From a virus: a stretch of 41,240 nucleotides of DNA. The first letter of the stretch is position 1, and every line of letters begins with the position of its first letter. This document shows positions 10,601-28,692 of this stretch, in pieces. The notes beneath the pieces are model-generated. The model searched no databases, was not told the origin of the DNA, and worked only from the letters and a program-made list of their open reading frames with translations. Position numbers and translations under genes: made by a program. The stretch lies in the IMG/VR virus record IMGVR_UViG_3300010885_011541, positions 1-41,240 of that record. One strand, 5' to 3'.

Positions 10601-13600
10601 TAACAGACAAAGTCGTTTTAACCAACGGTGATACTATTACCACAGTAGAGTATGACAGCACTGACGGCTCTTTCGTTCCGGCGACTCCTACTAAATTAGG
10701 TCTATGGCCAAAATACGAACCTAAGATATACTTAGATACTACTTTAATAAATCCGCAAAATGTTATACAAGGTCACGATGGTAGTATTATTTTAGCCTAC
10801 AATGATTACCGTGATGCTGTTATTTTAGAATTTGAAAAACGAATTTTTAACAATTTAAAAGTTAATTACGATATTTCTATTTTTGATATCTCGTCTATCG
10901 TTCCTAGTTATAATCAAACAACGGCATATTCTAGAACCGAGTACAACGAAGTATTATCGACCAATTTTTATTCATGGGTTGGACTTGTTGGCAAGGATTT
11001 AACAACCCCGTTAAGTTATAATAGATCTAATAGTTTTACCTACAACTATTCTTTCAATAGCGGACCAAATGGATCACCTTTGCCAGGTTACTGGCGTGGT
11101 GTATATCGTTGGTTATTAGACACTGACCGTCCGCAGTTATGCCCGTGGGAGATGTTGGGCTATAGTATAGAACCAGCGTGGTGGGCTACGGTGTATGGGT
11201 CTGCTCCTTATACTAGCGACAATATTCCTATGTGGAATGATATTGCTACAGGAATTATCAGAGAACCAGGTGCTCCATTACGAATTAATGCAAAATATGC
11301 TAGACCATTTTTAAATAATCACATACCAGTAGATAGCGATGGCAATTTAATTAGTCCACAGTTTTCTGGATTAGCTACCGGTTTAGTAGAACCAAATATA
11401 GACAATAATTTTGTATTTGGTGACGGTAGCCCAGTAGAAACCGCGTGGACACGTAGCAGTTATTATCCGTTTAGTGTAATTAAAACAGCATTGTTGTTAA
11501 ATCCTGCAAGTGTGTTTGGTGTATTATTAGATCGTAGCAATATAGAAAGAAATCTAGCAGGGCAATTAGTTTACAAGTTATCTAATTTACGAATTAAGCC
11601 TAAGGATATTGTATTACCTAGCGTGTATTCAAGTAGCACTAGGTTACAGACAGCTGGCCTTGTCAATTATGTAGTAGATTTAATTTTTAACTATATCTTT
11701 AGTAATGACATTCAAGCATACAATTCGTATTTGTCAGATTTATCTAAGATGATTCCTCGACTTAGCTATCGTGTAGGAGCATTTACAAATAAAGATCAAT
11801 TCAATTTATTATTGGAATCAAAAACTCCAAGTAGCACCGGTAATGTGTTTATTCCTGCCGAAAATTACAAAGTGTTCTTGAATAAATCCAGCCCTGTTAC
11901 AAAATTAACATACAGTGGAGTTATTGTTACTAAGCTAACCACAGGCTTTGAAATCAAAGGATACAGTATAACACAACCGTATTTTAAATATTATCAATAT
12001 ACTGGTTCTGGTATTACAATAAACGTTGGCGGAATTTCTGAAAGTTATTCAGAGTGGGATGTAAACCAACAATATATTGCCGGCTCTGTAGTAATGTATT
12101 CTGGAAAATTCTACAGAGTTAATACTACAACAACCACTGGAAATTCTTTTAATTCTGAATTTTTTACAGCGTTGCCTTCGTTGCCTATGAGTGGTGGAGC
12201 AACTGCTACCTTGAGAAATCGATGGGACAAAGAAACTGCAAACGTTGCACCGTACGGCACCTTGTTCAAAACTGTTCAAGATGTTGTGGATTTCTTATTA
12301 GGGTATGGAGAATGGCTGAAAGATCAAGGATTCAAATTCGACAGTTATAATAACAACTATAATACAGTTTCAAACTGGGAAACAAGTTCTAGAGAATTTT
12401 TATTCTGGTCGACACAGAATTGGAGTTCTGGTCAAGAAAAATGGAGCGACTGGGTTCCTGATCAAAAATATAATTACGCAACTATTGTAAAATACGAAGG
12501 CGATTACTATAGCGCATTACAGAATATTCCAGCAAGTCCTACTTTTGATTTTGAAAAATGGAATCTGTTACCAGGGCTTAGTTCTGAAGGTGCAAGTGTA
12601 ATTAGTCTAAGTCCTTCTGCTAATTCTGTTAATTTTAACGCGACACTTTCGGTTGTAGACAGTATTGCAAATAACTTCAATGCTTACGAGATTTTTAAAG
12701 TAAACGGTACTCCTTTTGAAATTGGCAATCTTAATAGCTATCGACAAGGTAATTCTGTTAACTATACACCTCAAACAGCTGATGGAATATTTGGTGCTAG
12801 CTTTTATCTAGTGCAACATGAACATGTTATTATTATTGATAACACTACAATTTTTAACGATGTTATATATAACCCGGCTAGCGGTTATCGACAGGAACGA
12901 TTAAAAATCTCAGGATATGTAACCACCGATTGGTATGGCGGGTTAGATATTCCAGGATTTATATTTGATAGTGCAACTATCAACGACTGGCAGGCCTGGA
13001 AAGACTATGAGGTAGGAGATGTAGTCAGCTATCATAGTTACTATTATTCAGCCAATGTGTTCATCGCAGGTACTGCTGTGTTTGATGATGCAGGCTGGAC
13101 CAAGTTAGATAAGAAACCAACTCCGTCGATATTGCCAAACTGGACAAATATTGCAACACAGTTTACAGATTTTTATGGCCTTGAGGTTGACGGATTCAAT
13201 TCTGCGCAACAAAAAATGGCACAGCATTTAATCGGATATCAAAAGCGTCAATATTTAAACAATATTATTCAAGACGATGTTAGCGAGTTTAAATTCTACC
13301 AAGGAATGATCCGAGAAAAAGGAACACAGAATGTTCTTAATAAACTATTTGGTGTATTAAATTCAGAAAACAAAGAAAGTTTAACGTTTTATGAAGAGTG
13401 GGCACTCCGTGTCGGACAATACGGTGCATCAAATGCCTACGATAGTATAGAATTCGTATTAAAAGAATCATTATATAATAACAATCCTCAGGGCACGTTG
13501 TTAACAAAGAGACTTAACAGCAATGTTAATGCTTTTATTATTCAACAAACTCCTAACGATGTATATGTATCCCCGTTGGGTTATAATTCAAATCCATTTC

Positions 13601-16600
13601 CAGAACTACCTACGGTTATTTACACTACACCTGACCCGTCAGTTGATGTACAAGTGTCGACACCTGTTAATCAGTTTTTAAGAAGTGCTGGCTATGTAGA
13701 TCCAGCAGATGTATTTGCTAGCCTAGGTAGTTTACAAGATTTAGTTAGCCATCCGGCAACCCGAATTACTGTAGGACTTAATTATAAAATATTAACTGTT
13801 GGCACAACTGATTTTACACAGATTGGTGCCGCAAGTAACACAGCGGGAGTTACGTTTACCGCAACAGGTATTGGTTCAGGGTCAGGAACAGTTTGCTTAA
13901 ATATTTCAGAAATCAACGAAGGTGCATACTTCTGGTGTGCATTTGATGGAGCCACTAGTTGGAATGTTTACAGATTTACTGACATTCAGCTTCGAATAAC
14001 TGACATATCTTATGATAAGAATCTACTAACAATCTCAACACAATATGATTCTCCGTTATCTGCTGGAAGTTATATAGGCATTGCCCAGTCAGAATTAATA
14101 CAAGGATTCTATAAAATTGAATCTTCTGTTTTAAATAAAATAACAGTGTCAGCTCCAGGACTAAAAGGTTTTCCTAGCTCTTATCCAAATGCATCTAATG
14201 TAGTCGTATATTCTTTATTAACACAGCGTACCGATTTGATTGACTCTATCGATAGTATACTTCCAAACAGATTAACAGATGGCGACATGGTATGGACTGA
14301 TACAAGCGATAGTGTTACTAATAATTGGGCGACTTGGAAATATAAAAAGGTATTTCAAGATACTGCTATCAATTCACCGGTAACCGCTTCAGGAACATTA
14401 TTTTCTAACTTCATTGCAGTCAATAATTTAGGCACTATGGCCGCAGTATCCGTTGGTGCGACCCAGATTGCTACATACGACAAAATATCGGAGTCAGTAA
14501 GTTGGACGCAACGACAACTGATTCAGCCGCCTTTCAATACTGTAGGATCTCCTGCTTCTAGTACTGTAGTTTCTTCGGCCGCATTTAGCCCCGACGGTAC
14601 TTGGCTTGCTACCGGTAGTCCTTCTGTTGGACAAACTAGCACTTTCTATAAAGGCGTTTATAGTTCTAGTGTAGCTTATCTTAAAAATGATATTGTATCG
14701 TATCAAGGAAAATTCTACCAGGCATTGTTCAATGTACCTGCTACTGACTTGCCTACGCAATCAAGTGTTTTCTGGAATCAGATATTCTATATTCCAGTTT
14801 CTCCAACATCAACTTATACTTCGGGATTTACATCTAACGGTATGATTACGTTGTATAAGAAAGACTCTAACAATAACTATCAGCTGGTAGATTCTATCAT
14901 AAGTCCAGTTATTTCTAATGAGCAATTTGGATCTAAATTAATATTTGACGATATGAATTTATATGTAAGTGCTACTGCCTACAACAATAATACCGGCAGA
15001 GTTTACAAACTTTCATATGATACGATTCCTCAAATTATTGCAATATATGACGAAGTTAATAGTAGCGGAACAACTTTAAAATTAACATCTTCTAAAGGAA
15101 TCTCTGCTGGTATGCTAGTCACTGGACTAGACATTTTAGGAATTAATTCTGCGTTTACATCCAATCAAGTAGTTAACTTTGTTCTTACAAGACTGTTGTT
15201 TGTGCCAGTTGCCGGTGCAATTAATAATATTCTTAACACTAGTTCCACAAGTATAAATCTTTCTAAAATAGTTAAAGATGCTAATGTGTTGTTGTATCAA
15301 AATAGTTACAACTATAACATTCCGGAAGTGACAGTAGTATCAACAGGACTAACTTCTATAAATCAGTTGTCAACAACTCGCCCGCTGATCTCTGGAGGTA
15401 TTATTAATGCCAACTCATTTAATGTATCTTCTATAACTGGAATTGCAGTCGGGTATCTAGTAGTTGGAACAGGAGTGCCGACCGGAAGTTATGTAGGAGA
15501 TATAACACCGGTTTCGGGATCTTTTAGAATTACACTAGTCGATTTCGTAGGAGCAATACAAAACTTTATTGTACAAGGGTCGGGCAATTATCAGTTTTAT
15601 AAAATTAATACTTACAGTTTTGTTGAAATCAAGAGTCAAAAAGATTTAACAATTGGCGACGTGTCGTTGCCTGTTACAACTGCAAGATTTGGAAATCCAA
15701 ATTCAGAAGATCCTGCTTTAAAAATTGCAGATCCTTCGTTAACGTTTACAGTATTTTCTATTGAAAGCGCCAATACAGTTGTATTGTCAAGCGCCCCGGA
15801 CATAGCTCCTAAAGGAGAATTAACATTCTCTACTGTATCGTGGGCGTACAACGGATACAATCAAGGAACATCTGCTAATAGTTATTTTGGTAAACAACTA
15901 GCATTAAGTACAGACGGTACAGCACTGGCAGTATCTGCAACAGTTGGCAATGTTGGAAAAGTTTATGTCTATCAAAATAATAGCTTATTCCAAACGTTTA
16001 CTGGCATTTCGAATACATTTGGTCAAAGCATTTCATTGTCAACTACTGGCAAATATCTTGCTATAAGCGATAATCTATACAGTACAACTACAATTAATCA
16101 ACGAGGAAGTGTCAACATATACGAATTAGGAACCGCAGAATATAAATCAATTTGGAGTTTGAAGCCTCATAATCCGGAAACCAATGGCGAGTTTGGTTCT
16201 AAAATCTCCTTCATGAATGATTTTAATACTCTAGTAGTTTATAGTCAAAATGGTGCAAGCATAATAACAACTACATATGATGTGTATTCAACACCGTTGT
16301 CTACTAGTTCTAATTCTTATGGAACACCGTATGTAAATGATTCTTCTAAGGATAAAAATACTACACTAACTACATTTGATAAAAAATCTACTAATTTTAT
16401 AACCACACAAACTAGTAGCGGCCGAGTCGATGTTTATGATCGATATAATAAAAATTGGGTATACAGTGAAAGTTTAACAAACGTTTTCAATAATACAAGT
16501 GGTTATGGTCAAGGATTTGCAGTTGGTAAGAATAATATTTTTGTAGGATTGCCCTTAGTAAGTGTTGGTAGTCTTACAACACAAGGCAAGTTGATAGTAT

Positions 16601-19600
16601 ATACAAAACCGACCAATCTAGTAACTTGGAACATGTACAAAACAGCATCCACTGTTGCCGATGTTACAAAAATAAAAAATGCATTTCTATACAGTAAATC
16701 AACTAGTCAGTTATTAACTTATCTAGATGTAATAGATCCATTGCAAGGTAAAATCGCAGGTCCGGCAGAGGAAGAAATTAAGTTTAAATCTTTCTACGAT
16801 CCTGCATCATATTCTTACAGCACTTCTAGTGTAGAAGTCACTGTCAACCCTAACAGCTTCTGGTCGTCTGAACAAAAAGGACAACTATGGTGGGACCTAA
16901 GAACAGCCAAGTTTGTTGTTCCATATTTTGAAGATCCTGCTTACAAAAATAATCAATGGAATACATTGGCTCCAGGTGCAAGCATTGATGTATATGAGTG
17001 GGTATCTACTTCGATTCTACCATCTCAGTGGGATGCGCAATCTGCCACTCCGGCAGGTAATTCTATTGGAGTTACTGGTCAAACTTTATACGGTGACAAT
17101 GCGTACTCTGTAACTAAGACTTATAATACTGTAAATAAAACATTTAAAAATACATATTATTACTGGGTTAAAAACAAAATTAATATTCCGAGAGTTGCTG
17201 GTCGAAACATATCAGCACAAGCTGTTGCAAAATTAATTGAAAATCCTAGAGGCCAGGGGTATTCTTATCTAGCCTTGCTGGGCACAAATGCATATAGTCT
17301 TGTTAATGTTTCACAATACTTAAATGACTCGGACACAATTCTAGCTCTTGAATTATGGACAACTGATAAAATACATAGAAATGTACACAGTCAGTGGAAA
17401 TTAATTAGTACAGATACAATAGTACAGTTACCAACTGCAATAGAACAGAAATGGATTGATAGTTTGTGTGGAGTAGACGACGCTGGAAGAAGTGTTCCTG
17501 ATGTATTGCTACCATTGAAATTAAAATATGGTATCGAGAACAGACCAAGACAGGGCATGTTTATTAATCAAGTAGAAGCATTAAAAGAATTTATAGAGGG
17601 CGTTAATTCTGTATTGTTACAAAATCAAATCGTAGACAATTACGATATCTCTAATCTATCAAAGATCGATCCAGTTCCTAATATAGTAACCGGATTATAT
17701 GATAGCTCTATTGATACAGATATAGAACTAAGTTATGCAAACATAAATCTTTTCATAAGACCTGTATTACAACCAATAATCGAAAATGGCAGAATAATTG
17801 GCATTAAAATTATCAACCCAGGCCGAGGCTATTTACAAGCACCGTATGTACAAATCTCAGGTTCAGGCCAGGATGCATTAGTCAGAGCTAATATAGATAC
17901 ATTAGGAAGAATTCAAAGTTTTAATATTATTTCTAAAGGTATTGGATATGATGACACTACAACTGCAACAACCAGAGATTATTCGATCCTAGTAAAAAGC
18001 GATAGTCAAGCAAGTGGCTCATGGAGCATATATTCATTTGATCCAACATACATGGATTCTACTGGTATTGTAGTAGGAAAATGGAGTCGTTCGCTTACAC
18101 AGGCATACGATGTTTCTTTATATTGGTCCAAAGTTGATTGGTATGCAACTGGATACAGTCAATTTACCTCACCTGATTTTTCAGTGCAGTTATTTGTTGA
18201 TTTGAATTTCATAACAACGCAAATTGGAGATATAGTAAAGGTAGTACTAGCAAGTCCCACACAGTGGATGCTTTTAGAAAAATATTCAAATTCTATAAGC
18301 GAAGACTGGACGTTGTCTTATAAAGTTGTAGGAGTACAAGCTGGAACAATCCAGTTTAATTCAAGTATATACCAAACAGATTTTTCTGCGGTTGGATACG
18401 ATTCTGGAACATATGACAGTGGTGCGTTTGACGTAAAGGCATCAACCGAATTAAGAATCATACTTAATACTATAAAAGATAAACTGTTAATTGGTACTTT
18501 ATATTATAATTATTTAGATTTGTTCTTTAGAAGTGTTAGGTATGCTCACAGCGAACAGCCGTATATTGATTGGATATTCAAAACTAGCTTTGTACGAGCA
18601 ACACATAATGTTGGAAGTTTCTCACAACCGGTCTATTATCCAGTTGATAATTTAAATAATTTCCAGGATTATGTTGCCGAAGTCAAGCCTTATAGAACTA
18701 AGATACGTGAATATATTAGTCAATATTCAAATACGACTTCGCCTGAAATGAGTTCGACTGCGGTTACTGACTTTGATTTACCGCCTGCGGTTAGCAACGG
18801 AGCTTTAAATGTAGTCAACACGTTTGTCAATAAAGGTGTAATTTCTGCAGGTAATCCAATAATACAAACTTACCCTTGGAAATTCTGGTTAGATACTGTA
18901 GGATTTAAAGTTGTTGAATTACACATAGTATCTGGTGGTAGCGGATATATTACAACACCGGAGGTTGTGTTCACTAGTCCGTCTGGATCAGGAGCATCGG
19001 CTCAAGTATTTTTTACAAATGGTGTTCTTAACAGAGTTATATTATTAAAATCGGGATCTGGATACTTGTCTGCTCCTTTAGTAGAAGTTAGAGGAGGACT
19101 AAGTGTTGGCGGATCTCCTGCGAAAATAGTTGCAATTATTGGAAAAAGTGTTGTGCGATCAGTATCGACCGCACTTAAATTCGACAGAATAGGTCAAACA
19201 ACTTTTATTAATGATATTAATGCAACTGAAACGTTAACCGGTTCAGGATCTCAACTAACATTTGATTTAACATGGCCACCTGATATAAAGATTAATAAAT
19301 CATCAGTCACTGTTGTTAATAAAAATACATTAACAGCTTATCCGGTATTGACAGAAAACTATAAACTAGTAACAGTTAAATCAAAAATTGATGGTGTTAC
19401 ATACTATTCTGGAAAAATTACTTTTGAATCACCGTTGCAATCTTACGAAGTTGCAACTATAAAATATGTAAAAGATATTATTTTATTAAATGCGGCAGAT
19501 AGAATTAATTTTTATTATAATCCAGAGTCTGGAATGTTAGGTAAAGAATTAAATCAATTAATGACTGGTATCGATTACGGTGGAACTATTGTTGGCAATT

Positions 19601-22600
19601 TAGGATTTACAACCAGCGGAGGATGGGGAGATCAGCCATTTAATACTGACAAGTGGGATTCGTTTGATCCTACATATACAGATTATAAAGTAGTACAAAC
19701 GTCAACACCGACTGTCGATTGGCATTTACCTTATGTGCCTGCGGGCGGCATGAAAGTAAATGTCTATTGGAGTGAATACGTTGCTTTAGAATTGCCAGGT
19801 GACGGAGTTACAGTTAATTTTCCATTCAGTATCTTTTTATATCCTAACGTATTTTTAACTAACACTGCATATTCTAAGAGCTTGTTAGGAGTTAGTACAA
19901 TTGCATCTACGTTAACTGATAATCAATATCCAATTAGTACAACAACAATTGCGGTGGCTAAATCACTTGCAGGTGCAGCCGATCAATCTTCAATCTTAGT
20001 AGATGACCCTGCAAATATCAACGTTAATCAGTTTGTGTCTGGTGTAGGTGTGCCCATCAATACTAAAGTTGAAGCAGTAATAGGTAATCAAATTATTTTA
20101 AGTAATGGCTTGACTTTAAATTCTGCTGGTAATACTTATTCTTTCTTTGAGTTAGGAACATTGTTAACACTAGCATCTACTTCTAATATTTTAGTAGGTT
20201 CTGGAATTATTGGAAAAGTTCCAACGCTACCTGTGCAGGGTGTTAAAATTGAGTCTACACTGGGAGAATTTAGTTGTAGTCCAACACAAATTGTTATAGG
20301 AGATCTAGTAGGAATACAAGGAACTTTAACAGTTAGTACTGCAAACGGTAGTATTGTAGGATTTACAGGACCGTCATTAGCAATTTATTATGTGATAGAA
20401 ACTAACGGATCGACAACATTTACATTATCAAGTGATCCAACAGGCACTCATGTAACAACAACTACTGGTACTGCTGGTGCAACCGCAGGATTGACATTTA
20501 CTATTTTCCAAAATTCTGGAGTATTTACTACTCAGACAGTACAAAAAATAATTGACGGAAGATCTTTGTTACTAAGCAGACCACCAGAATTAATCCCATT
20601 AGATGGCGAAGTAATTTCAATAGTAAACAATTCTGCTGGTTCCAAAACTTTAACAGTGACAGACACTTCTTTGTTACAAGTAAACGATATTTTAACATCT
20701 AATATAGATAACGGTGTTTTTAGTTTAAATTGTTACATAGTTAGCATTGACAGTTCAACACAAATAACATTAAATCAGATTTTATATAGCAATCTTAATA
20801 ACGGAACTCCGTTAACCTTTACTAGAACGCTAGTTGATCCAATTGATGTTAATAATCGACTTCCAGGATATGTGGGGTTTGTGGTTCCACCACCGCTGGG
20901 CACAATTGTAAATATTGTAGGAAACTTGGATCCAATAAGAGTCGACGCTGAAGATTTTGATATTAATACAGGAACATCCGCAACTAATCCATATGCAGTT
21001 ATGGAAACGGTGGTGTCAACTGGAGCTTCGGACCCTGACAACAATAGTAACTATCAAATCACAATTCCATCGGTATTTAAATCTCAAATCAACGGTACAG
21101 TTTCTACAAAAGCGAACGATAAATTCATATTCCGCCAACAGACTAGCGACGGTTCTATTATTCCAACAGATAGAGATACTGACATATCTGGTGGAGATCT
21201 TGCATATTCAACTGCTCGCGGTATTGCCGCAGACGATATTGTTATAGACGGAGACGGGTTAATAACACCGACAAGTAGTCCAGCTCCTGAAGAAGTAGTA
21301 CCCGGCCAAGTTGTTGATACGTTAGCAATTAAAGTATTTGACAAAACTCAAACTGGTTCTGCGGATATAAAAGTTGACAATTTTATCGCCGACGGCCAGA
21401 CCACAAGATTCTTAATATCAGTTCAACCGATAACAAATAATTCAATAATTGTAAAAGTATCTGGACAAACAGGCAACCTTGGTATGCAAACATTAGGAAT
21501 CGATTACGCTATAGATTACGAAGCTAGTGAAATTCATTTTAATGTAGCACCGTCTAGCGGATCAATCATTAGTATTTTTAACATTGGTGTTGCAGGTGAA
21601 AATATTTTAGATTTTGATTATTTTGTCGGAGACAACATCACTAACGAGTTTATAACACAAGCACCGTGGCTCGACTCTTTCACAGGAGTTGTACTAGTTG
21701 ATGGGGTTCCAGCAGATGTACAATATTTTAAAACAGACGAAAATTATATTTTAGTTAAATCGGTTGGTATAAGATTTGTTAACCCGCCTACTTCTAATGC
21801 GTTGATTAATTATTTTATAGTAAGTGGTCCAGAACAAACCTTTGCCATTACGAATACTGAACGTGTACAGACCAATGGCTCTAAAGTATACACTTTAAAT
21901 AATTTGATTGGTAATTTGTTGCCAAACGAAACATTTATGATTGTAAGGGTAGATGATCAAATATTACCTGCTCCTGTAAATTCTTATTTTGTTGTTGAAA
22001 ACGGTAAATTATCATACAGCCTTGACCAGAATAAGGTTCCTCCATATTCAGTGTCTGCTGGTTCTATATCAGTACTATCGGGTAATAATTTATTATTAGC
22101 TGGAAGAGACTATTCTGTAGATTTAAGTGGTATCACTATCAACATTACCACAACAGCATATACAGCTTATGCCGGCGCAATCTTAGTAGTAAGTGTATTG
22201 TCTCCTAATAGCTATACATATAATGCAAGTACTAAACAAATAACATTTACACAAGCATACGATCAGAATAACATCGTTGAAGTTACTACAGCGTATCAGC
22301 ACGATACAATATCTTTAGAAAGAACTGAAGTTATCGTTGAATCCAATGCAACTATAACAGCAAACACTCCGGTATATTATAAGATATCAAATGTATCGGG
22401 TGGCTTAATTACACTTGAAAAACCTGTAATTAACGAAAACTACGTGTGGCTAACAAAAAATTCAATATTATTGACTCCGGGTGTTGATTTTAAACTAAAC
22501 GATGACAACACTACAATTCAATTAGCAAACATTCCGTCAGTAAATGATACTATTGAAATATTGGCCTTTGGTGCTTCCGTGATTCATCCAGGTATTGCTT

Positions 22601-23811
22601 ATATGCAATTTAAAGATATGTTAAATCGAACATCATATACTCGATTATCAGCCGATAAACAAACAACATTGGCATTGCCTTTATTATGGACAGATACCGT
22701 AATTGTGTTGACAGATGCTACTAACTTCCAAGTACCCAGTGTAGCTAATAAAATTCCGGGCGTGATAGAAATACAAGGCGAGCGTATCGAGTATTATTCA
22801 AAAACTGGAAATGTGTTAGGTCAGTTGCGCCGTAGTATTTTAGGAACAGGTATTGCAAAATCTAACCCGGCTGGAACTTATGTTCAGGATATTAGTTCGT
22901 CGGAAACAATCCCGTATAAGGATACAACCAATGTTTATAATCTAGTATCGAACGGCACTAACTATGTTGATTTAGATTTTGTTCCTATCAAAGGATCTTT
23001 ATCTGATTCTTCGGGAATAAAATTTTGGTTTACAAACAACGGATACACATTCTTAGGAGCATTTAACGATGCATTATCTTACGTAATTAAAAACGTTGTT
23101 ATATATAACGAAAATTATTATCGTTGCATAAAATATGTTCCTACAATAGCTGGAAGAGCAGTGTCGATAGATTATTCTCCAGCTTCAACAACATATTGGG
23201 CATTATATGATACAACTATTCCTGTAAACTACGGACAAACCGATTACATAGAAGTGTTCGTCGGCGGATACAATAACATTGGAAATTGGTCAGCTAATAC
23301 AAGTTATGCAGAAGGTGTTTTAGTAAATGTAGGTAGTTACACTTATAGATGCTTATTGGATCATACGAGTACAGATACATTTACAACTGATTCTGCAAAT
23401 TGGACTTTCTTTATAGGTAATATAAGATTGAAAAAATTACCATATTCAGTGTTTAATATTAACAATGGACCAAAGAGTCCCGAAGGCGATGTTCATTTTG
23501 ACGCAGACTTTTCAGCGGATGGTGTATCTAAACAAATTAGATTAACTAATTTGTTAGATATTGGCGTTCAGGTGGCTGTGTATCAGAGAACTGGTGTAGC
23601 ATGGGACGGAAAACAACCAGATGGTAATTTAAATATATTAGAAGATAGCAGTAAGATTGCTGAATTTATCAAGGCAAAACCTGGTATTTGGTATTCACAA
23701 TATAATCAAATAAGTAATACAACGCTAGGTAGACCTGCGCAAAAACAAATAAACTTTGATGCGCCTACTACTTCATTCGATGATAGCGATTTAACAATGG
23801 ATCAAGGATAA
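7699..23811 (+). CDS. Giant modular baseplate/tail structural protein in the gp7 position (5370 aa)
   Basis: One uninterrupted 5370-codon frame starts at the ATG overlapping the gp6 stop, with GGAGG at 7685-7689. T4 gp7 has 1032 aa. The N-terminus (NLLPKFYQTVANKKFLQSTI, then FFKDYQDYINQLNVFG and WDPHIDWDKFVNFQNYYWLP) and C-terminus (PTTSFDDSDLTMDQ) resemble large wedge-region proteins of marine T4-like phages. Visible modules are: a cupredoxin-like domain lacking copper ligands (residues 166-268); six CBM5/12-like Y/W-rich modules near 1451-1497, 1582-1626, 1762-1804, 2316-2362, 5120-5171 and 5194-5238; a YKILTVGTTDFTQIGA fibre module near 2020-2066; a propeller-like block of FGSKL/SPDGTWLATG/GKVYVY repeats (2228-2975); two GSGY-type beta modules (3367-3419, 3741-3802); and GERIEYYSKTGN...LRRSILGTG near 5025. 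No signal peptide or membrane segment is evident. I infer a wedge/peripheral baseplate protein; direct gp7 orthology is uncertain. Confidence 0.8.
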   Translation: MATNKNASTDGFSANLLPKFYQTVANKKFLQSTIDQLYQPGTLTKTSGYIGKKNAKASTGKDVYVNAADQVRQNYQLEPAITIKDSLDNITFFKDYQDYINQLNVFGANTSNHARLNSQEFYSWDPHIDWDKFVNFQNYYWLPYGPDVITIYGHEIPIQSTFTVKVEAEGSNNQFIFTPDGFSPNPVLTLYEGQTYTFNIDCPGNPFSIKTARTTGHLDRYVYLNSIDNYGVESGTITFTVPVNAPTILYYQSENDINLGGVIQIFSSKDDTSINVESEILGKASYVLSNGTPLSNGMKVSFKGTVLPTEYSTGEYYVEGVGSAIKLVKSSVLEIISPFTTSIDQQFDYLPFDTDPWDTATGYAGQLDYVVINRASKDHNPWSRYNRWFHKDVIIASATYYNNPPNLDQNARAKRPIIEFNADLRLYNFGTIATEEIDLVDTFTTNVFSVIEGSIGYNIDGQKLVAGMKVLFVADTDPLVNNKIFKVEYIDVKHLNTGSNQLHLVEVSEPVLDQTVLVRAGVANQGSMYWYDGTKWNKGQSKTVVNQPPLFDIVDSDKISFGNKTKYVGSTFKGTSIFSYKTGTGSKDSMLGFPLSYLNINNIGDIVFNFNLAVDTFQYKNAETNVVVSQPINVGFLSSLDYSLKTVYLNGWQKCNTKTVQAAVRIYDNSGLVNNFDIDIFDDIDQLTDLIVKVYVNGVRLDKSYWDVVKSSVYYRIVLKTDIATTDVLTIRAFSNQPINANGYYEIPINLQSNPLNEEIGDFTLGEVIDHVNSIIDNIPSFLDTSLESSSEQTVTNQTFDPDHPNIRDLGNITQYGTKFVQHSGPASLSIYHITSESFNVIKALDQSRNDYSNFKRLFVNTISSLGVHADPVTMVELAMNKINANKPNVAPYYLSDMLPYGANITTELNVVDYRIRKYPLTNPFNLDGITSANSNKAVGVYLNGFTVGTQLLYGIDYLFDSQGFIEITDKVVLTNGDTITTVEYDSTDGSFVPATPTKLGLWPKYEPKIYLDTTLINPQNVIQGHDGSIILAYNDYRDAVILEFEKRIFNNLKVNYDISIFDISSIVPSYNQTTAYSRTEYNEVLSTNFYSWVGLVGKDLTTPLSYNRSNSFTYNYSFNSGPNGSPLPGYWRGVYRWLLDTDRPQLCPWEMLGYSIEPAWWATVYGSAPYTSDNIPMWNDIATGIIREPGAPLRINAKYARPFLNNHIPVDSDGNLISPQFSGLATGLVEPNIDNNFVFGDGSPVETAWTRSSYYPFSVIKTALLLNPASVFGVLLDRSNIERNLAGQLVYKLSNLRIKPKDIVLPSVYSSSTRLQTAGLVNYVVDLIFNYIFSNDIQAYNSYLSDLSKMIPRLSYRVGAFTNKDQFNLLLESKTPSSTGNVFIPAENYKVFLNKSSPVTKLTYSGVIVTKLTTGFEIKGYSITQPYFKYYQYTGSGITINVGGISESYSEWDVNQQYIAGSVVMYSGKFYRVNTTTTTGNSFNSEFFTALPSLPMSGGATATLRNRWDKETANVAPYGTLFKTVQDVVDFLLGYGEWLKDQGFKFDSYNNNYNTVSNWETSSREFLFWSTQNWSSGQEKWSDWVPDQKYNYATIVKYEGDYYSALQNIPASPTFDFEKWNLLPGLSSEGASVISLSPSANSVNFNATLSVVDSIANNFNAYEIFKVNGTPFEIGNLNSYRQGNSVNYTPQTADGIFGASFYLVQHEHVIIIDNTTIFNDVIYNPASGYRQERLKISGYVTTDWYGGLDIPGFIFDSATINDWQAWKDYEVGDVVSYHSYYYSANVFIAGTAVFDDAGWTKLDKKPTPSILPNWTNIATQFTDFYGLEVDGFNSAQQKMAQHLIGYQKRQYLNNIIQDDVSEFKFYQGMIREKGTQNVLNKLFGVLNSENKESLTFYEEWALRVGQYGASNAYDSIEFVLKESLYNNNPQGTLLTKRLNSNVNAFIIQQTPNDVYVSPLGYNSNPFPELPTVIYTTPDPSVDVQVSTPVNQFLRSAGYVDPADVFASLGSLQDLVSHPATRITVGLNYKILTVGTTDFTQIGAASNTAGVTFTATGIGSGSGTVCLNISEINEGAYFWCAFDGATSWNVYRFTDIQLRITDISYDKNLLTISTQYDSPLSAGSYIGIAQSELIQGFYKIESSVLNKITVSAPGLKGFPSSYPNASNVVVYSLLTQRTDLIDSIDSILPNRLTDGDMVWTDTSDSVTNNWATWKYKKVFQDTAINSPVTASGTLFSNFIAVNNLGTMAAVSVGATQIATYDKISESVSWTQRQLIQPPFNTVGSPASSTVVSSAAFSPDGTWLATGSPSVGQTSTFYKGVYSSSVAYLKNDIVSYQGKFYQALFNVPATDLPTQSSVFWNQIFYIPVSPTSTYTSGFTSNGMITLYKKDSNNNYQLVDSIISPVISNEQFGSKLIFDDMNLYVSATAYNNNTGRVYKLSYDTIPQIIAIYDEVNSSGTTLKLTSSKGISAGMLVTGLDILGINSAFTSNQVVNFVLTRLLFVPVAGAINNILNTSSTSINLSKIVKDANVLLYQNSYNYNIPEVTVVSTGLTSINQLSTTRPLISGGIINANSFNVSSITGIAVGYLVVGTGVPTGSYVGDITPVSGSFRITLVDFVGAIQNFIVQGSGNYQFYKINTYSFVEIKSQKDLTIGDVSLPVTTARFGNPNSEDPALKIADPSLTFTVFSIESANTVVLSSAPDIAPKGELTFSTVSWAYNGYNQGTSANSYFGKQLALSTDGTALAVSATVGNVGKVYVYQNNSLFQTFTGISNTFGQSISLSTTGKYLAISDNLYSTTTINQRGSVNIYELGTAEYKSIWSLKPHNPETNGEFGSKISFMNDFNTLVVYSQNGASIITTTYDVYSTPLSTSSNSYGTPYVNDSSKDKNTTLTTFDKKSTNFITTQTSSGRVDVYDRYNKNWVYSESLTNVFNNTSGYGQGFAVGKNNIFVGLPLVSVGSLTTQGKLIVYTKPTNLVTWNMYKTASTVADVTKIKNAFLYSKSTSQLLTYLDVIDPLQGKIAGPAEEEIKFKSFYDPASYSYSTSSVEVTVNPNSFWSSEQKGQLWWDLRTAKFVVPYFEDPAYKNNQWNTLAPGASIDVYEWVSTSILPSQWDAQSATPAGNSIGVTGQTLYGDNAYSVTKTYNTVNKTFKNTYYYWVKNKINIPRVAGRNISAQAVAKLIENPRGQGYSYLALLGTNAYSLVNVSQYLNDSDTILALELWTTDKIHRNVHSQWKLISTDTIVQLPTAIEQKWIDSLCGVDDAGRSVPDVLLPLKLKYGIENRPRQGMFINQVEALKEFIEGVNSVLLQNQIVDNYDISNLSKIDPVPNIVTGLYDSSIDTDIELSYANINLFIRPVLQPIIENGRIIGIKIINPGRGYLQAPYVQISGSGQDALVRANIDTLGRIQSFNIISKGIGYDDTTTATTRDYSILVKSDSQASGSWSIYSFDPTYMDSTGIVVGKWSRSLTQAYDVSLYWSKVDWYATGYSQFTSPDFSVQLFVDLNFITTQIGDIVKVVLASPTQWMLLEKYSNSISEDWTLSYKVVGVQAGTIQFNSSIYQTDFSAVGYDSGTYDSGAFDVKASTELRIILNTIKDKLLIGTLYYNYLDLFFRSVRYAHSEQPYIDWIFKTSFVRATHNVGSFSQPVYYPVDNLNNFQDYVAEVKPYRTKIREYISQYSNTTSPEMSSTAVTDFDLPPAVSNGALNVVNTFVNKGVISAGNPIIQTYPWKFWLDTVGFKVVELHIVSGGSGYITTPEVVFTSPSGSGASAQVFFTNGVLNRVILLKSGSGYLSAPLVEVRGGLSVGGSPAKIVAIIGKSVVRSVSTALKFDRIGQTTFINDINATETLTGSGSQLTFDLTWPPDIKINKSSVTVVNKNTLTAYPVLTENYKLVTVKSKIDGVTYYSGKITFESPLQSYEVATIKYVKDIILLNAADRINFYYNPESGMLGKELNQLMTGIDYGGTIVGNLGFTTSGGWGDQPFNTDKWDSFDPTYTDYKVVQTSTPTVDWHLPYVPAGGMKVNVYWSEYVALELPGDGVTVNFPFSIFLYPNVFLTNTAYSKSLLGVSTIASTLTDNQYPISTTTIAVAKSLAGAADQSSILVDDPANINVNQFVSGVGVPINTKVEAVIGNQIILSNGLTLNSAGNTYSFFELGTLLTLASTSNILVGSGIIGKVPTLPVQGVKIESTLGEFSCSPTQIVIGDLVGIQGTLTVSTANGSIVGFTGPSLAIYYVIETNGSTTFTLSSDPTGTHVTTTTGTAGATAGLTFTIFQNSGVFTTQTVQKIIDGRSLLLSRPPELIPLDGEVISIVNNSAGSKTLTVTDTSLLQVNDILTSNIDNGVFSLNCYIVSIDSSTQITLNQILYSNLNNGTPLTFTRTLVDPIDVNNRLPGYVGFVVPPPLGTIVNIVGNLDPIRVDAEDFDINTGTSATNPYAVMETVVSTGASDPDNNSNYQITIPSVFKSQINGTVSTKANDKFIFRQQTSDGSIIPTDRDTDISGGDLAYSTARGIAADDIVIDGDGLITPTSSPAPEEVVPGQVVDTLAIKVFDKTQTGSADIKVDNFIADGQTTRFLISVQPITNNSIIVKVSGQTGNLGMQTLGIDYAIDYEASEIHFNVAPSSGSIISIFNIGVAGENILDFDYFVGDNITNEFITQAPWLDSFTGVVLVDGVPADVQYFKTDENYILVKSVGIRFVNPPTSNALINYFIVSGPEQTFAITNTERVQTNGSKVYTLNNLIGNLLPNETFMIVRVDDQILPAPVNSYFVVENGKLSYSLDQNKVPPYSVSAGSISVLSGNNLLLAGRDYSVDLSGITINITTTAYTAYAGAILVVSVLSPNSYTYNASTKQITFTQAYDQNNIVEVTTAYQHDTISLERTEVIVESNATITANTPVYYKISNVSGGLITLEKPVINENYVWLTKNSILLTPGVDFKLNDDNTTIQLANIPSVNDTIEILAFGASVIHPGIAYMQFKDMLNRTSYTRLSADKQTTLALPLLWTDTVIVLTDATNFQVPSVANKIPGVIEIQGERIEYYSKTGNVLGQLRRSILGTGIAKSNPAGTYVQDISSSETIPYKDTTNVYNLVSNGTNYVDLDFVPIKGSLSDSSGIKFWFTNNGYTFLGAFNDALSYVIKNVVIYNENYYRCIKYVPTIAGRAVSIDYSPASTTYWALYDTTIPVNYGQTDYIEVFVGGYNNIGNWSANTSYAEGVLVNVGSYTYRCLLDHTSTDTFTTDSANWTFFIGNIRLKKLPYSVFNINNGPKSPEGDVHFDADFSADGVSKQIRLTNLLDIGVQVAVYQRTGVAWDGKQPDGNLNILEDSSKIAEFIKAKPGIWYSQYNQISNTTLGRPAQKQINFDAPTTSFDDSDLTMDQG

Positions 23812-23815
23812 ACAT

Positions 23816-26452
23816 ATGGCTTTACAATTAATAAACACAGGAACAACTCCAGGTGATAAGACAGGAGATACATTACGCAGTGCAGGTTTGAAAATTAATG
23901 CAAACTTTACAGAAGTATATGCTTCGTTAGTCAACTCCTATACATTGCCTGTAGCAAGCGGTGCAACATTAGGAGGAGTTAGGATTGATGGAACTACAAT
24001 ATCTATTAGTAATAACGGAATTATTTCTGCAAATTATGTAAATTATTCATTACCAATTGCAACGACTAGCGTACTAGGCGGTGTCAAAGTAGATGGAACT
24101 ACAGTAGTAATTAATTCCGGAACCATTTCTGCTCCTTATACATATTCTTTGCCGCAGGCTAGTACTAGTGTAAGAGGAGGTGTAAAAGTTGATGGCACTA
24201 CTATTACTATTAATCCTACAACTGGAATTATTAGTAGTGTATCGAATTATGCACTACCAACAGCAACAACTAGTGTACTAGGCGGAGTCAAAGTTGATGG
24301 AACAACTATTACTATTAATGGTAGTGGAGTAATAACTTCTAATACAACTTATAGTTTACCAACAGCGACAACTAGTGTACTAGGTGGCGTAAAAGTAGAC
24401 GGCTCTAGTGTTACTATTAATAATGGAGTAATTAGTTCAAACTATAGTTTGCCTCAGGCAACAACTAGTGTACTAGGCGGAGTAACAGTAGACGGTACTA
24501 CAATTAGTTCAACAAGTGGCCAGCTAGCAGTTGTTCCTGCTAACATTAAAGCAGTTGCCGCAGCCATGCTAACGGGTGGAACACAATCTGGAATTTCATT
24601 TAGTTATAACAGTGGTACAGGATTAATGTCAACTACTGTTACTGGCGGCAGTGGTGGATCAGGAATTACGGGAGTCACAGTACAGAACGCAGGAGTTACA
24701 GCGGGTGTAGCAAGTGCTGTTACTACATTAAACTTTACAGGTACTGGTGTTACGGCAGGAGTTAGTGGTAATACTGCAACATTGACGATTAACACTGGTA
24801 GTTACACTTTACCTCAAGCAACCACGGTAGTCCTAGGAGGAGTTAAACCGGACGGCACTTCAATTGTAGCCAATAGCGGAGTAATTTCCAGTGTAGTACC
24901 AGTAGCAACAACTAGTGTGTTGGGTGGTGTTAAACCAGATGGATCGACGATTACTATCAGTGGTAGTGGCGTTATCAGTGCGTCTCAATATACTTTACCA
25001 ACAGCCAGTACAGGAGTACTAGGAGGTGTTAAGGTTGACGGTACAACAATTAGCATCAATGCTGGAGTTATCACAGCTAACTACACAAACTATTCATTGC
25101 CAACGGCTAGTACAAGTGTGTTAGGTGGTGTTAAGGTTGACGGTTCGACTATTAGTATTGTTGGCGGAACTATTACAGCTAATTATACCAATTATACACT
25201 ACCAATTGCAAGCCTAAGTGCATTAGGAGGAGTCAAGCCCGATGGCACTACTATTACAATAAATCCAATTACTGGAGTCATTAGCGGGACAAGTAGTTAT
25301 ACTCTACCAACAGCTAGTGTAAGCACATTGGGCGGTGTTAAGATCGATGGAACAACTATTACTATTAATGGATCCGGAGTCATATCAGCTGTTCAAAATA
25401 CATATTCATTGCCTGTTGCAAGTACCAGTGTGCTTGGCGGTGTCAAAGTAGACGGATCGACTATTAGTATCGTTAGTGGAACTATTACAGCTAACTATAC
25501 AAATTATTTATTGCCGACAGCAACTACAACTATATTAGGCGGTGTCAAAGTTGATGGTACAACTATTACTATAAACAACGGAGTAATCAGTTCTTCTTCA
25601 GCATACACTTTACCAGTAGCAACTACAAGCGTTTTGGGCGGAGTTAAGGTCGATGGATCGACTGTTACTATTAATAATGGAGTAATTAGTTCAGCACAAT
25701 ATACATTACCAACAGCAACATCAACTGTGCTTGGCGGAGTTAAGGTCGATGGAACAACAATACTTTCAAATAACGGAATAATTTCTTATTCACTACCAAC
25801 AGCTGGCACAAGTACACTAGGTGGTGTTACAATTGCCGCGGTAGCTACAAGTGGTATTAACAATACTAGTGGTGCAATAAGTTTAGCCACAGCAAGTACA
25901 ACACAGTTAGGTGGTGTTAAGGTTGACGGTTCGACTATCACTATTAGTTCGGGAGTCATAAGTTCAACACAATATACATTACCGACTGCAACAACTAGTG
26001 TATTAGGTGGCGTAAAAGTAGACGGCACGACTGTTAGCATTAGTGGTGGTGTAATCAGTGCGTCAGGTAGTTTATTAAGCAGATCTACAGTAGCAACAAC
26101 TACTGCAAGTTTAGCATCTAATGCCGCTGCCACTGCAACGGTCACTGCCGCAAAAGGATATGCATTATACAGTATTCAAGTCAGTGCTGGAGCTTGGGTA
26201 TCGATATATACCAGTTCAACTGCGCAGTCAAGTGATAGTAGCAGAACAATTACAACAGATCCAACACCAGGTAGCGGCGTAATTGCAGAGGCAATATCTA
26301 CTACTGCAACTACAACTTATTTTACTCCTGCGGTATACGGTTTTAATGCTGATGGAACTCCTAGCACAAATATGTATTTGAGAATTACAAATAATAGTGG
26401 CGGCACAACCGCTATTACAGTAACTATAACATACTTAAAATTAGAAAATTAA
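23816..26452 (+). CDS. Repeat-stalk tail fibre protein
   Basis: The product is 878 aa and begins with MALQLINTGTTPGDKTGDTL, the N-terminal signature of many marine phage fibre proteins (NTG..PGDKTGDTLR.A..K.N.NF.E.Y). Residues 42-750 are a tandem array of 19 units of about 29-35 residues with the pattern Y-LPxATTSVLGGVKVDGTTITI-x-GVIS. One large interruption lies after unit 6 (a Gly/Thr/Val-rich insertion of about 85 residues, nt 24510-24800). The C-terminal 125 residues (ATVTAAKGYALYSIQVSAGA to TYLKLEN) form a distinct beta-rich knob. AAGGA at 23804-23808 precedes the ATG by 7 nt. The gene follows the giant wedge protein by 4 nt and precedes the S53 peptidase by 1 nt. I infer a trimeric beta-stalk with a receptor-binding or virion-decoration tip. 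Confidence 0.85.
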   Translation: MALQLINTGTTPGDKTGDTLRSAGLKINANFTEVYASLVNSYTLPVASGATLGGVRIDGTTISISNNGIISANYVNYSLPIATTSVLGGVKVDGTTVVINSGTISAPYTYSLPQASTSVRGGVKVDGTTITINPTTGIISSVSNYALPTATTSVLGGVKVDGTTITINGSGVITSNTTYSLPTATTSVLGGVKVDGSSVTINNGVISSNYSLPQATTSVLGGVTVDGTTISSTSGQLAVVPANIKAVAAAMLTGGTQSGISFSYNSGTGLMSTTVTGGSGGSGITGVTVQNAGVTAGVASAVTTLNFTGTGVTAGVSGNTATLTINTGSYTLPQATTVVLGGVKPDGTSIVANSGVISSVVPVATTSVLGGVKPDGSTITISGSGVISASQYTLPTASTGVLGGVKVDGTTISINAGVITANYTNYSLPTASTSVLGGVKVDGSTISIVGGTITANYTNYTLPIASLSALGGVKPDGTTITINPITGVISGTSSYTLPTASVSTLGGVKIDGTTITINGSGVISAVQNTYSLPVASTSVLGGVKVDGSTISIVSGTITANYTNYLLPTATTTILGGVKVDGTTITINNGVISSSSAYTLPVATTSVLGGVKVDGSTVTINNGVISSAQYTLPTATSTVLGGVKVDGTTILSNNGIISYSLPTAGTSTLGGVTIAAVATSGINNTSGAISLATASTTQLGGVKVDGSTITISSGVISSTQYTLPTATTSVLGGVKVDGTTVSISGGVISASGSLLSRSTVATTTASLASNAAATATVTAAKGYALYSIQVSAGAWVSIYTSSTAQSSDSSRTITTDPTPGSGVIAEAISTTATTTYFTPAVYGFNADGTPSTNMYLRITNNSGGTTAITVTITYLKLEN
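23939..26067 (+). repeat. Array of 19 in-frame coding repeats in the fibre gene
   Basis: The repeats are coding, about 87-105 nt each, and encode variants of LPxATTSVLGGVKVDGTTITI. Conservation is clear in protein and only partial in DNA because synonymous codons vary (for example ctaggcggtgtcaaagta, ttaggtggtgttaaggtt). Unit 6 lacks the KVDG core and leads into a long insertion; unit 17 has lost the VDG core; unit 8 starts VVP instead of YxLP. The pattern implies old expansion followed by drift, with room for unit gain or loss by recombination. Confidence 0.9.
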
Positions 26453-26453
26453 T

Positions 26454-28031
26454 ATGTCTAATCAAACAACAATTAGTATATACCTTAAAAGAGACAAGCA
26501 TGAAAACGGCATGTCTCTCCAGGAGTATACCGACGCAATTATAGCAGGCACACAACCAGTGCTTAGCCAGGATGCGTTTGCTTATCAATTTGGCGCTATC
26601 GAAGATGAAATGGCAGTGGTTGAGTCTTGGGCCACTACAAATAATTTAACCGTAGTAGAATCAAATCAAGCAACGGCCACTATAAAAGTTCTAGGCTCAT
26701 TTGAACAATTTGATTCTTTGTTTAGCATAACTTTAAAACTTGCCACAACAGAAGATGGGCATGAATATCAGACTCACGACGGTAACGTGGTTGTGCCGAG
26801 TGAAATTGATGATGTGGTTGCAATGATTTTAGGATTTGATAACCAACCAATTTTTTTACATAATGCTGTTGAGTTTGATGAGCAAATTCACACCAATGAT
26901 GACCCAGCGGTGTACCCGACCAAGGCAGCGGTAACACCTGTGCAGGTTGCAACAGCATATGGATTACCAGCTGGCAACGGATATGGTGGTTGCATTGGAT
27001 TATTGGAATTAACTTATAGTGGATATGTTGCAGGATACAATACAACCGATGTGACAAATAGTTTTACCCGCATTGGCCTTACTGCACCAACCGTTGTTGA
27101 TGTGTTGGTAGACGGAGCAACTCGAAGCACTACAAGTGATGCTGAAACCATGCTGGACATTTATTGTGCCGGCGGTGTAGCACCAAAAGCAACTATTGCA
27201 GTTTATATGGCACCAAACAGCGGCCAAGGTTTTTACGATGCAATTCTAGCGGCGTCAACTGACAAAACAAATATGCCAAGCAGTCTTGGAATCAGTTGGG
27301 GAACCAGCACTGAAGGCAATGGAGATTACTTGACCTCAGCATTCCAAGCATGTGTGGCAGTGGGAGTAACTTGTTTTGTGGCAACTGGAGATTCAGGAGC
27401 CAATAATTTAGTAACAGGATATCCAGGAACAAATGCTTATCAAATTGCCAGTGGCGGCACTAGTTTATATCTTAATACTGATAACACTTGGAATAACGAA
27501 GCTGGGTGGTCCGGCGGTGGTGGCGGAATTAGTGCAATAGTTAGTTTACCTAGCTGGCAAACGGGATTAACTTCTACAACTGTAACTGCTAGTACTACGG
27601 GCACAGCAACCACATTGCCTCGTCGAGGCATTCCGGATATCAGTGCGCCAGCAGACCCCAGCACTGGATATCAATTTTATGTCAACAGCGCACTAGTACA
27701 ATATGGAGGCACAAGCGCGGCAGCTCCGTGGTTAGCTGGTATGATTACCCGTTTAACTCAACTATGGGGCCGTAGAACATCATTTGCTAATTCGCTGTTT
27801 TATTCAAATACACAGGCATTTACTGATATAACATTGGGTAATAACCGTAACGGATATACTACAGGATATACAACTACCACAGGTTGGGATGCCGCAACTG
27901 GATTAGGAAGCCCAAAAGGTGCTGAACTTTATAAATTATTCCACACTGGCAGTACTTTTCCCAAACAAAATTATGGATTTAGACCCACTACTGGCTCTAC
28001 ATACCCTAGACGTACGACTGGTGCTAGGTAA
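26454..28031 (+). CDS. S53 family peptidase (sedolisin/kumamolisin type) with prodomain
   Basis: This 525-aa protein is a full serine-carboxyl peptidase. Residues 1-145 match a prokumamolisin activation domain (SLQEYTDAI, then the FGSFEQFD-like segment and VVPSEIDDVVAMILGFDN). The catalytic domain starts about 160 (TPVQVATAYGLPAG). The S53 catalytic residues are all in place: E231 and D235 in SDAETMLDIYCAGG, D313 in ATGDSGA, and S421 in GGTSAAAPW. Other family landmarks are APKATIAVYMAPN, SLGISWG, the Gly-rich GGGGGIS loop, PDISAPADPSTGYQFYV, and the calcium-site segments FTDITLGNNRNG (D458) and GWDAATGLGSP (D479). Spacing is close to kumamolisin. No signal peptide is visible. A 25-residue Thr/Arg/Pro-rich tail follows the domain. 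The gene lies 1 nt after the fibre gene with no ribosome binding site, so it is probably translated by coupling and made late with tail proteins. Its target is unknown; virion maturation or host-surface digestion are both possible. Confidence 0.93.
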   Translation: MSNQTTISIYLKRDKHENGMSLQEYTDAIIAGTQPVLSQDAFAYQFGAIEDEMAVVESWATTNNLTVVESNQATATIKVLGSFEQFDSLFSITLKLATTEDGHEYQTHDGNVVVPSEIDDVVAMILGFDNQPIFLHNAVEFDEQIHTNDDPAVYPTKAAVTPVQVATAYGLPAGNGYGGCIGLLELTYSGYVAGYNTTDVTNSFTRIGLTAPTVVDVLVDGATRSTTSDAETMLDIYCAGGVAPKATIAVYMAPNSGQGFYDAILAASTDKTNMPSSLGISWGTSTEGNGDYLTSAFQACVAVGVTCFVATGDSGANNLVTGYPGTNAYQIASGGTSLYLNTDNTWNNEAGWSGGGGGISAIVSLPSWQTGLTSTTVTASTTGTATTLPRRGIPDISAPADPSTGYQFYVNSALVQYGGTSAAAPWLAGMITRLTQLWGRRTSFANSLFYSNTQAFTDITLGNNRNGYTTGYTTTTGWDAATGLGSPKGAELYKLFHTGSTFPKQNYGFRPTTGSTYPRRTTGAR

Positions 28032-28043
28032 TAAAACTAGCAC
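28021..28043 (+). terminator. Hairpin at the end of the S53 gene (weak terminator or mRNA end candidate)
   Basis: GTGCTAG (28021-28027) and CTAGCAC (28037-28043) form a perfect 7-bp stem around a 9-nt loop that contains the S53 stop codon. No run of T follows (ATTATAAACATT), so it is not a classical intrinsic terminator. Its position, just before a late promoter, fits a boundary between transcription units or an mRNA-stabilising 3' structure. Confidence 0.4.
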
Positions 28044-28055
28044 ATTATAAACATT

Positions 28056-28064
28056 GATAAATAC
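28056..28064 (+). promoter_or_regulatory. T4-type late promoter box upstream of the 202-aa protein
   Basis: GATAAATAC occurs in the 52-nt gap after the S53 gene, ending 19 nt before the next ATG. It is identical over nine bases to the box upstream of gp6 and follows the hairpin at 28021-28043. I infer it starts a separate late transcript covering the 202-aa protein and the fibre genes after it. Confidence 0.75.
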
Positions 28065-28083
28065 AAGATAAAGAGAGACAAAT

Positions 28084-28692
28084 ATGCACAAGGACGCAAC
28101 AGGAATTCATATAGAAGGGCACATTCATATATTTGACCCTACGACTAAAGAAACCTTCGTGAACAAACGTAATGCTATTCATTATGAAAATATGAGTTTA
28201 GCGTTGGCAAAATCGTTGGCAAATACATCAACTGGCGGGTATGTATATCAGATGGCATTTGGCAACGGTGGAACAGCCGTCGATCCTACAGGTATTATTA
28301 CATATTTGACACCAAATACTAGCGGAACTAATGCAAGTTTATATAATCAAAAATATGCAAAAATAGTCGACCCTAATGCCGCAACTAATGTTGACCCAAC
28401 CCGTAATTTTACAGAAGTCCGTCACACAACAGGCACAACTTATTCTGATTTATTTGTTTCTTGTTTACTAGATTACGGCGAGCCCGACAATCAAACAGCA
28501 TTTGATACAGTTAACAGTAACAATAGTTCTTTTACATTTGATGAATTGGGACTAGTAAACTATGATACTACTGGAAATGCCCTATTGTTGACACATGTTA
28601 TATTCCACCCTGTATTAAAAAGTTTAAATCGTTTGATTCAGATCGATTATACAGTACGTATCCAAAGCCTTACCGGCTTGGTATCGGTATAA
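28084..28692 (+). CDS. Virion structural protein, tail/fibre-associated (unknown role)
   Basis: I do not recognise a characterised domain in this 202-aa protein. The N-terminus has a His-rich beta segment (GIHIEGHIHIFDP) followed by KRNAIHYENMSLALAKSLAN. The middle has GGYVYQMAFGNGGTAVDPTG and TEVRHTTGTTYSDLFVSCLL. The C-terminal half (FTFDELGLVNY, LLLTHVIFHPVLKSLNRLIQ, then IDYTVRIQSL) is a beta-rich pattern seen in small structural proteins of marine T4-like phages, where such genes sit among tail fibre genes. No signal peptide or membrane segment is present. The first gene of its own late unit, it has a weak GAGAG binding site, and its stop overlaps the ribosome binding site of the following fibre gene. 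A fibre connector or baseplate attachment role is an inference from context. Confidence 0.6.
   Translation: MHKDATGIHIEGHIHIFDPTTKETFVNKRNAIHYENMSLALAKSLANTSTGGYVYQMAFGNGGTAVDPTGIITYLTPNTSGTNASLYNQKYAKIVDPNAATNVDPTRNFTEVRHTTGTTYSDLFVSCLLDYGEPDNQTAFDTVNSNNSSFTFDELGLVNYDTTGNALLLTHVIFHPVLKSLNRLIQIDYTVRIQSLTGLVSV

Follow-up and report, generated by a model that had tools for sequence, protein, structure and literature searches.

The S53 peptidase encoded by the window, a 41,240-bp IMG/VR virus record analysed here as one whole stretch of DNA, probably forms the catalytic head of a baseplate fibre built from modules, in which a C-terminal tail would dock an exchangeable protease on the tip of the fibre; the protease would most likely serve to digest protein on the host surface as the phage adsorbs. 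Docking of the tail on the tip is, by comparison of sequences, the strongly supported part of this proposal. We also think it likely, if with slightly less assurance, that tip and tail represent a general and previously unrecognised virion docking system, with a tip socket and an RPxxGxx(Y/F/W)PR plug for swapping S53, S8 and other cargo via small adaptors, in jumbo phages of fresh water as well as in marine cyanomyoviruses and a cyanosiphovirus. The conserved tail, the tip domain and the exchangeability with S8 are the most informative facts, and all three were absent from the first-pass annotation of this DNA.

An S53 peptidase in a baseplate operon

The baseplate operon of the window lies on the + strand in the order gp5-like hub, gp25, gp6-like wedge, 5370-aa ORF, repeat fibre, S53 peptidase, 202-aa protein and more fibre genes, with the order 5-25-6-giant-fibre resembling T4 5-25-6-7-...-10. 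The gp6-like wedge (4238..7699, +; phrog_10646, E 6e-289), which has jumbo phage homologues, marks the operon as baseplate, and the top-scoring cultured relatives of this protein belong to the jumbo phages Sinorhizobium phage Phosso and Agrobacterium phage Atu_ph07. The operon is a jumbo-phage-like baseplate gene set, and we term the phage large and lake-derived. The giant 5370-aa baseplate protein (7699..23811, +), upstream of the fibre, and the conserved 202-aa protein (phrog_11259; 28084..28692, +) form the left and downstream borders, respectively, of the slot that holds the protease in relatives.

Three minor features of this region were also noted. The interval between the S53 and 202-aa genes (28032-28083) is conserved among relatives and contains gataaatacaag, recalling a T4-type late promoter. 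A downstream fibre gene (32916-34448) encodes a Peptidase_G2 autoproteolytic chaperone domain (PF11962, E 1e-8), indicating that self-cleaving fibre maturation exists in the operon. At the end of the window, the other strand carries the start of a ThyX-type thymidylate synthase (40853-41239, -).

The peptidase gene (26454..28031, +; 525 aa, ATG start) begins 1 nt after the stop of the fibre ORF at 26452. Pfam, phmmer and an AlphaFold model confirmed the prediction of a full-length kumamolisin-type (sedolisin) S53 peptidase with prodomain, catalytic set and Ca-site aspartates; thus the first-pass annotation was correct on all of these points, as it was on the 1-nt spacing, on the shared gene set with gp6 and the giant protein, and on an N-terminus that does not look like a signal peptide. 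The Pro-kumamolisin activation prodomain covers residues 3-130 (26460..26843, +; PF09286, Pro-kuma_activ, E 3e-12) and the catalytic domain, as placed by phmmer to kumamolisin, covers residues 158-496 (26925..27941, +); Pfam Peptidase_S8, of the same clan as S53, matches residues 238-436 (E 3e-12). The best phmmer match was intact pro-kumamolisin (MEROPS S53, PDB 1t1e; E 7e-70, covering residues 6-494), and 1t1e was also the top match of the AlphaFold model (mean pLDDT 73.6) in the PDB (E 3e-36, TM 0.81).

The Glu-Asp-Ser triad and oxyanion Asp, comprising E231 (27144-27146), D235 (27156-27158), D313 (27390-27392) and S421 (27714-27716, all +), align with E78, D82, D164 and S278 in kumamolisin numbering and show no variation among 22 distinct phage sequences. 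D458 is likewise invariant in these 22 sequences and D479 is invariant in a 21-sequence alignment; D458 (plus I459) and D479 align with the C-terminal Ca2+ ligands of kumamolisin, a site that is predicted from sequence comparison. A hydropathy scan, as distinct from a dedicated signal-peptide predictor, detected no hydrophobic stretch at the N-terminus (best 12-aa mean hydropathy 0.85). Relative to the nearest relative, dN/dS was 0.066 overall and 0.068 in the prodomain, and a ratio this low (0.07) indicates that the gene is under purifying selection. Thus the window peptidase is like kumamolisin in its full-length match, prodomain, catalytic set, Ca-site aspartates and fold, but unlike it in being encoded behind a fibre gene of a phage baseplate operon and in having about 27 extra residues as a C-terminal tail; furthermore, some phage S53s are without the prodomain. 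Known S53 peptidases prefer acid pH, which raises the question of where the phage enzyme is active.

We found no S53 match in 50,697 phage records, no matching PHROG family and, in a literature search, no published report of a phage-encoded S53. In IMG/VR, S53 genes occurred in 35 loci, that is, on dozens of contigs, and each of 16 larger contigs checked had one, the gene being split in L035 (7986-9258), where a prodomain-less S53 is broken by a frameshift or an error; its near twin, L032, is intact. The phage S53s have two forms, one with the prodomain (about 525-550 aa) and one without (about 410 aa). When 29 cellular relatives were included in a tree, the S53s of phages formed one clade (support 99), in which the prodomain-less members formed one nested clade (support 100), so that a single S53 acquisition and a single prodomain loss make the simplest history. 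Prodomain loss in several lineages was ruled out, since the tree shows one loss.

The prodomain-less subclade has kept the catalytic residues, the tail and the fibre partner, and the earlier suggestion that the enzyme is made as a zymogen is thus unsupported as an obligatory rule; the prodomain-bearing forms may cleave themselves. Acetobacteraceae, Acidobacteria and Burkholderiaceae are among the sources of the closest cellular enzymes, some of which are labelled as bog or palsa bins, at most a hint that acid-active S53s might belong to phages of acid bog lakes.

The fibre tip and the protease tail

The fibre protein (23816..26452, +; 878 aa) consists of a baseplate-type N-terminus (phrog_958, residues 4-50, E 9e-5), beta-repeats of about 28 aa and a C-terminal tip domain (residues 751-878; 26066..26452, +), the proposed socket for the tail, which was defined as an HMM/tblastn family and modelled with AlphaFold. 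The tip, of about 125 aa, is a predicted beta-sandwich (pLDDT 94.5), and comparison of its fold to the PDB found no close relative (best E 4e-4, TM below 0.5). The N-terminus of the window fibre falls below the PF07880 cut-off (1e-3), which fibres of several relatives pass. Fibres of these relatives resemble T4 gp9/gp10-type fibres by an N-terminal PF07880, and that of the window may do so by the phrog_958 baseplate wedge match; unlike the T4 fibres, which come with no separate protease, the window fibre ends in a tip domain that has an enzyme as its partner. We rejected a head fibre label (PF11133, phi29 gp8.5 type, E 8e-28) that was driven by a short GGVKVDGTT repeat; no stretch passes alone, and the best covers 25 residues.

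Fibres with this tip domain were found next to proteases of two families. A tip-domain fibre was directly upstream of S53 in all 22 distinct genes of the first set, mostly with a 1-nt gap. The cultured cyanophages S-H38, S-CREM1, Sf-FR1, S-WAM2 and S-RSM4 have the same tip, often on another fibre N-terminus, directly before an S8 protease. These cyanophage subtilisin-like proteases (phrog_9158; S-H38, S-CREM1, Sf-FR1, S-RSM4) share with the window enzyme the position after a tip fibre, the tail motif and clan SB, but belong to family S8 rather than S53 and are annotated as subtilisin-like, peptidase or hypothetical. In a tip-selected set, 61 of 66 distinct tip fibres were immediately followed by S8 (41) or S53 (20) and 2 more were cut by a contig end; since this set keeps the matches nearest the window's tip, it leans towards the window's kind of phage. 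There were exceptions: about three tip fibres lack an adjacent protease (the L155/L157/L174/L175 lineage), L162 and L164 have an S53 with an altered tail and no tip fibre on the contig, and in the siphophages S-CRES1 and S-CBS2 the tip is more divergent, with no motif found nearby. In the L155, L157, L174 and L175 lineage the fibre is a 288-aa protein, and one such genome has a tip and an S53 elsewhere (L402), at a distance of 78 kb.

The kumamolisin match stops near residue 494-496, and the remaining residues, about 27, make up the tail GSTFPKQNYGFRPTTGSTYPRRTTGAR (residues 499-525; 27948..28028, +), our proposed docking peptide. The tail is of low confidence (predicted disordered) in the AlphaFold model, is short and basic (0 acidic and 5 basic residues in 497-525), and is kept between S53 forms whose overall identity is only ~41%. 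None of the cellular S53s inspected had it, including those with a tblastn match reaching residue 525, and neither did the other genes of the S53 loci. The DNA pattern of the tail matched 28 stretches over IMG/VR; only two contigs outside the S53 set (L050 and L052) were among them, and we rejected these as coincidental, the ORFs concerned having no relation to S53.

The motif RPx(S/T)Gxx(Y/F/W)PR, which reads RPTTGSTYPR in the window, is common to the S53 and S8 tails. When an HMM of the S53 tail only was compared to 1097 non-S53 phage C-termini, the S8 cargos ranked first (E 3e-8 to 0.1), and a reversed-sequence control yielded nothing comparable (best score 4.4 bits). The sole other good matches were two small proteins whose genes lie a short distance behind tip fibres, one of 142 aa in cyanophage PSS2 and one of 120 aa in marine virus AG-345-F15. 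Similarly, hhalign related the S8 tails to the S53 tails at 96% probability. The shorter pattern G..[YFW]PR occurred near the C-terminus of 64 of 85 distinct proteases versus 3 of 1271 other ORFs, all 3 of which are small proteins of tip loci (Fisher p 4e-87, descriptive only because the sequences are related). The S8s outside the 64 have W/Y/F-PR variants or an internal motif ahead of an added domain, and proteases with an extra C-terminal domain retain the motif immediately before that domain. By appearance, the extra domain that follows the docking motif in the S8 cargos L319 and L320 is cupredoxin-like.

An exchangeable slot and its cargo

We examined the slot between the giant gene and the 202-aa gene in relatives picked by the 202-aa gene; here, as in the other comparisons, the contigs are fragments, the loci share ancestry and similarity guided the sampling. 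The slot was empty in many phages; filled slots held fibre and S53 in some phages, fibre and S8 subtilase in others, or other fibres without a protease. In this neighbour-selected set, a protease was present in 17 of 20 distinct tip-fibre slots and in none of 16 slots with other ORFs, save one extra S53 case (L162). The earlier idea that the peptidase trims the 5370-aa protein is unsupported, because in many relatives with the homologous giant and downstream genes the giant is directly followed by the next gene, with no protease in the slot, although fragmentary contigs may hide a protease elsewhere.

The cargo can differ between close relatives, and the cassette also occurs at other genomic sites. 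In L144, the neighbour genes are 76-88% identical to those of the window, while the S53 is of the prodomain-less subclade and 40% identical. One 345-kb contig has an empty slot, with a fibre and S53 about 72 kb away, and on a 165-kb contig a tip-only fibre occupies the slot and a fibre with a full S53 lies about 78 kb away; in all, the cassette of fibre and protease is kept at three genome positions, on different fibre N-termini. A tree of the tips shows ten changes of cargo label, of which at least four concern S53 across well-supported branches, and therefore homologous tips carry different enzymes. The S8 triad residues, D (VVDAH..), H and GTS, were present in the cargo sequences inspected, as judged by reading the sequences, since simple regex checks were misleading.

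Some tips precede proteins that are not proteases. In seven cyanophage loci (Sf-CH1b, S-SCSM1, S-H9-1, ACG-2014i, S-BM3, AG-345-F15 and PSS2), a non-protease protein of 365-930 aa comes directly behind the tip, and the product of a small gene a little further downstream (77-142 aa) has the motif at its end. Six of these phages (L311-L319; S-BM3, Sf-CH1b, S-SCSM1, ACG-2014i, AG-345-F15 and S-H9-1) have a cargo class of 608-930 aa without a Pfam match and with an N-terminus mostly like MAVTKTEYLVNGGNTGW; each is then followed by a small YPR-ending protein, a candidate adaptor pair.

Proposed mechanism and alternatives

We propose a mechanism in four steps. Fibre and protease constitute a two-gene cassette, in which the fibre ends in the beta-sandwich tip of ~125 aa, as the comparison of loci shows. 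The protease tail, RPx(S/T)Gxx(Y/F/W)PR, probably binds this tip, given the strong statistical association between them, so that any catalytic domain bearing the tail would be mounted on the fibre. As the comparison also shows, S53 with prodomain, S53 without it and S8 interchange behind homologous tips, and other tip fibres pair with non-protease cargo and a small tail-bearing protein. Finally, the mounted protease would be part of the virion and would cut host surface proteins, or protein barriers attached to the surface, during adsorption. In the window form, the prodomain probably prevents activity inside the infected cell before release, and related forms manage without it.

Because the S53 is tied to a fibre with a conserved tip domain, a link to the virion, which the first-pass annotation had raised, is the best reading of the sequences. 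Presence on the particle gains indirect support from S-SCSM1, whose record labels as virion or baseplate proteins the tip fibre, the cargo encoded behind it and a protein with an S8-like domain, such that an S8 homologue sits inside a record-annotated virion baseplate protein. Virion mass spectrometry was done by the authors of the S-SCSM1 paper (PMC9602691), and the S-CREM1 paper likewise reports virion mass spectrometry.

We considered that the protease might instead be an assembly enzyme, which docks to cleave the fibre or another baseplate protein in maturation and whose presence in the virion is incidental. The strict pairing with the fibre is consistent with such a role, as is the fibre processing in the operon indicated by the nearby Peptidase_G2 domain, but two peptidase families of different specificity behind the same tip fit a shared virion substrate poorly, some tip fibres have no adjacent protease, and the slot is empty in most relatives that have the same giant protein. 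We consider this explanation unlikely.

A marginally less probable alternative is that tail and tip are not partners, the Arg/Tyr/Pro-rich tail being a general localisation or surface-binding peptide and the gene order reflecting operon inheritance only. A short and basic tail would suit such a peptide, and the association does come from gene neighbourhoods in related sequences, so that the counts are not independent. Nevertheless, the cassette persists intact even where its genome position or the fibre N-terminus differs, unrelated small proteins bear the tail only beside tips, and P-SSM2, in which an S8 without the motif lies behind a fibre without the tip, is missing both together. That the peptidase is a free late enzyme, not carried on the particle but released at lysis or acting in the cell in nutrient recycling or host protein turnover, as the known secreted and degradative S53s might suggest, is very improbable given an N-terminus that is not signal-peptide-like, a phage-specific tail missing from cellular enzymes, the pairing with a baseplate fibre and the S8 homologue of S-SCSM1.

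If the docked protease does act at adsorption, it would resemble tailspike depolymerases, which cut capsule or LPS, in being a fibre-borne enzyme that clears a surface barrier; it is unlike them in being non-homologous and proteolytic, and in being a separate docked chain rather than a trimeric beta-helix. Phage fibres are known to carry sugar-cutting enzymes; to our knowledge, fibre-borne proteases have barely been described. The pairing of tip and tail suggests a fibre that is a tool holder with exchangeable blades. As a rule, it unites scattered 'subtilisin-like' and 'hypothetical' cyanophage genes into one testable system and predicts which small genes are adaptors, and the pair could provide a natural plug and socket to mount proteins on phage fibres. 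A separate observation concerns L172, in which a lectin-like Laminin_G_3 protein (7252-7935) shares the slot with a fibre that lacks the tip and lies directly behind it, possibly as another exchangeable head.
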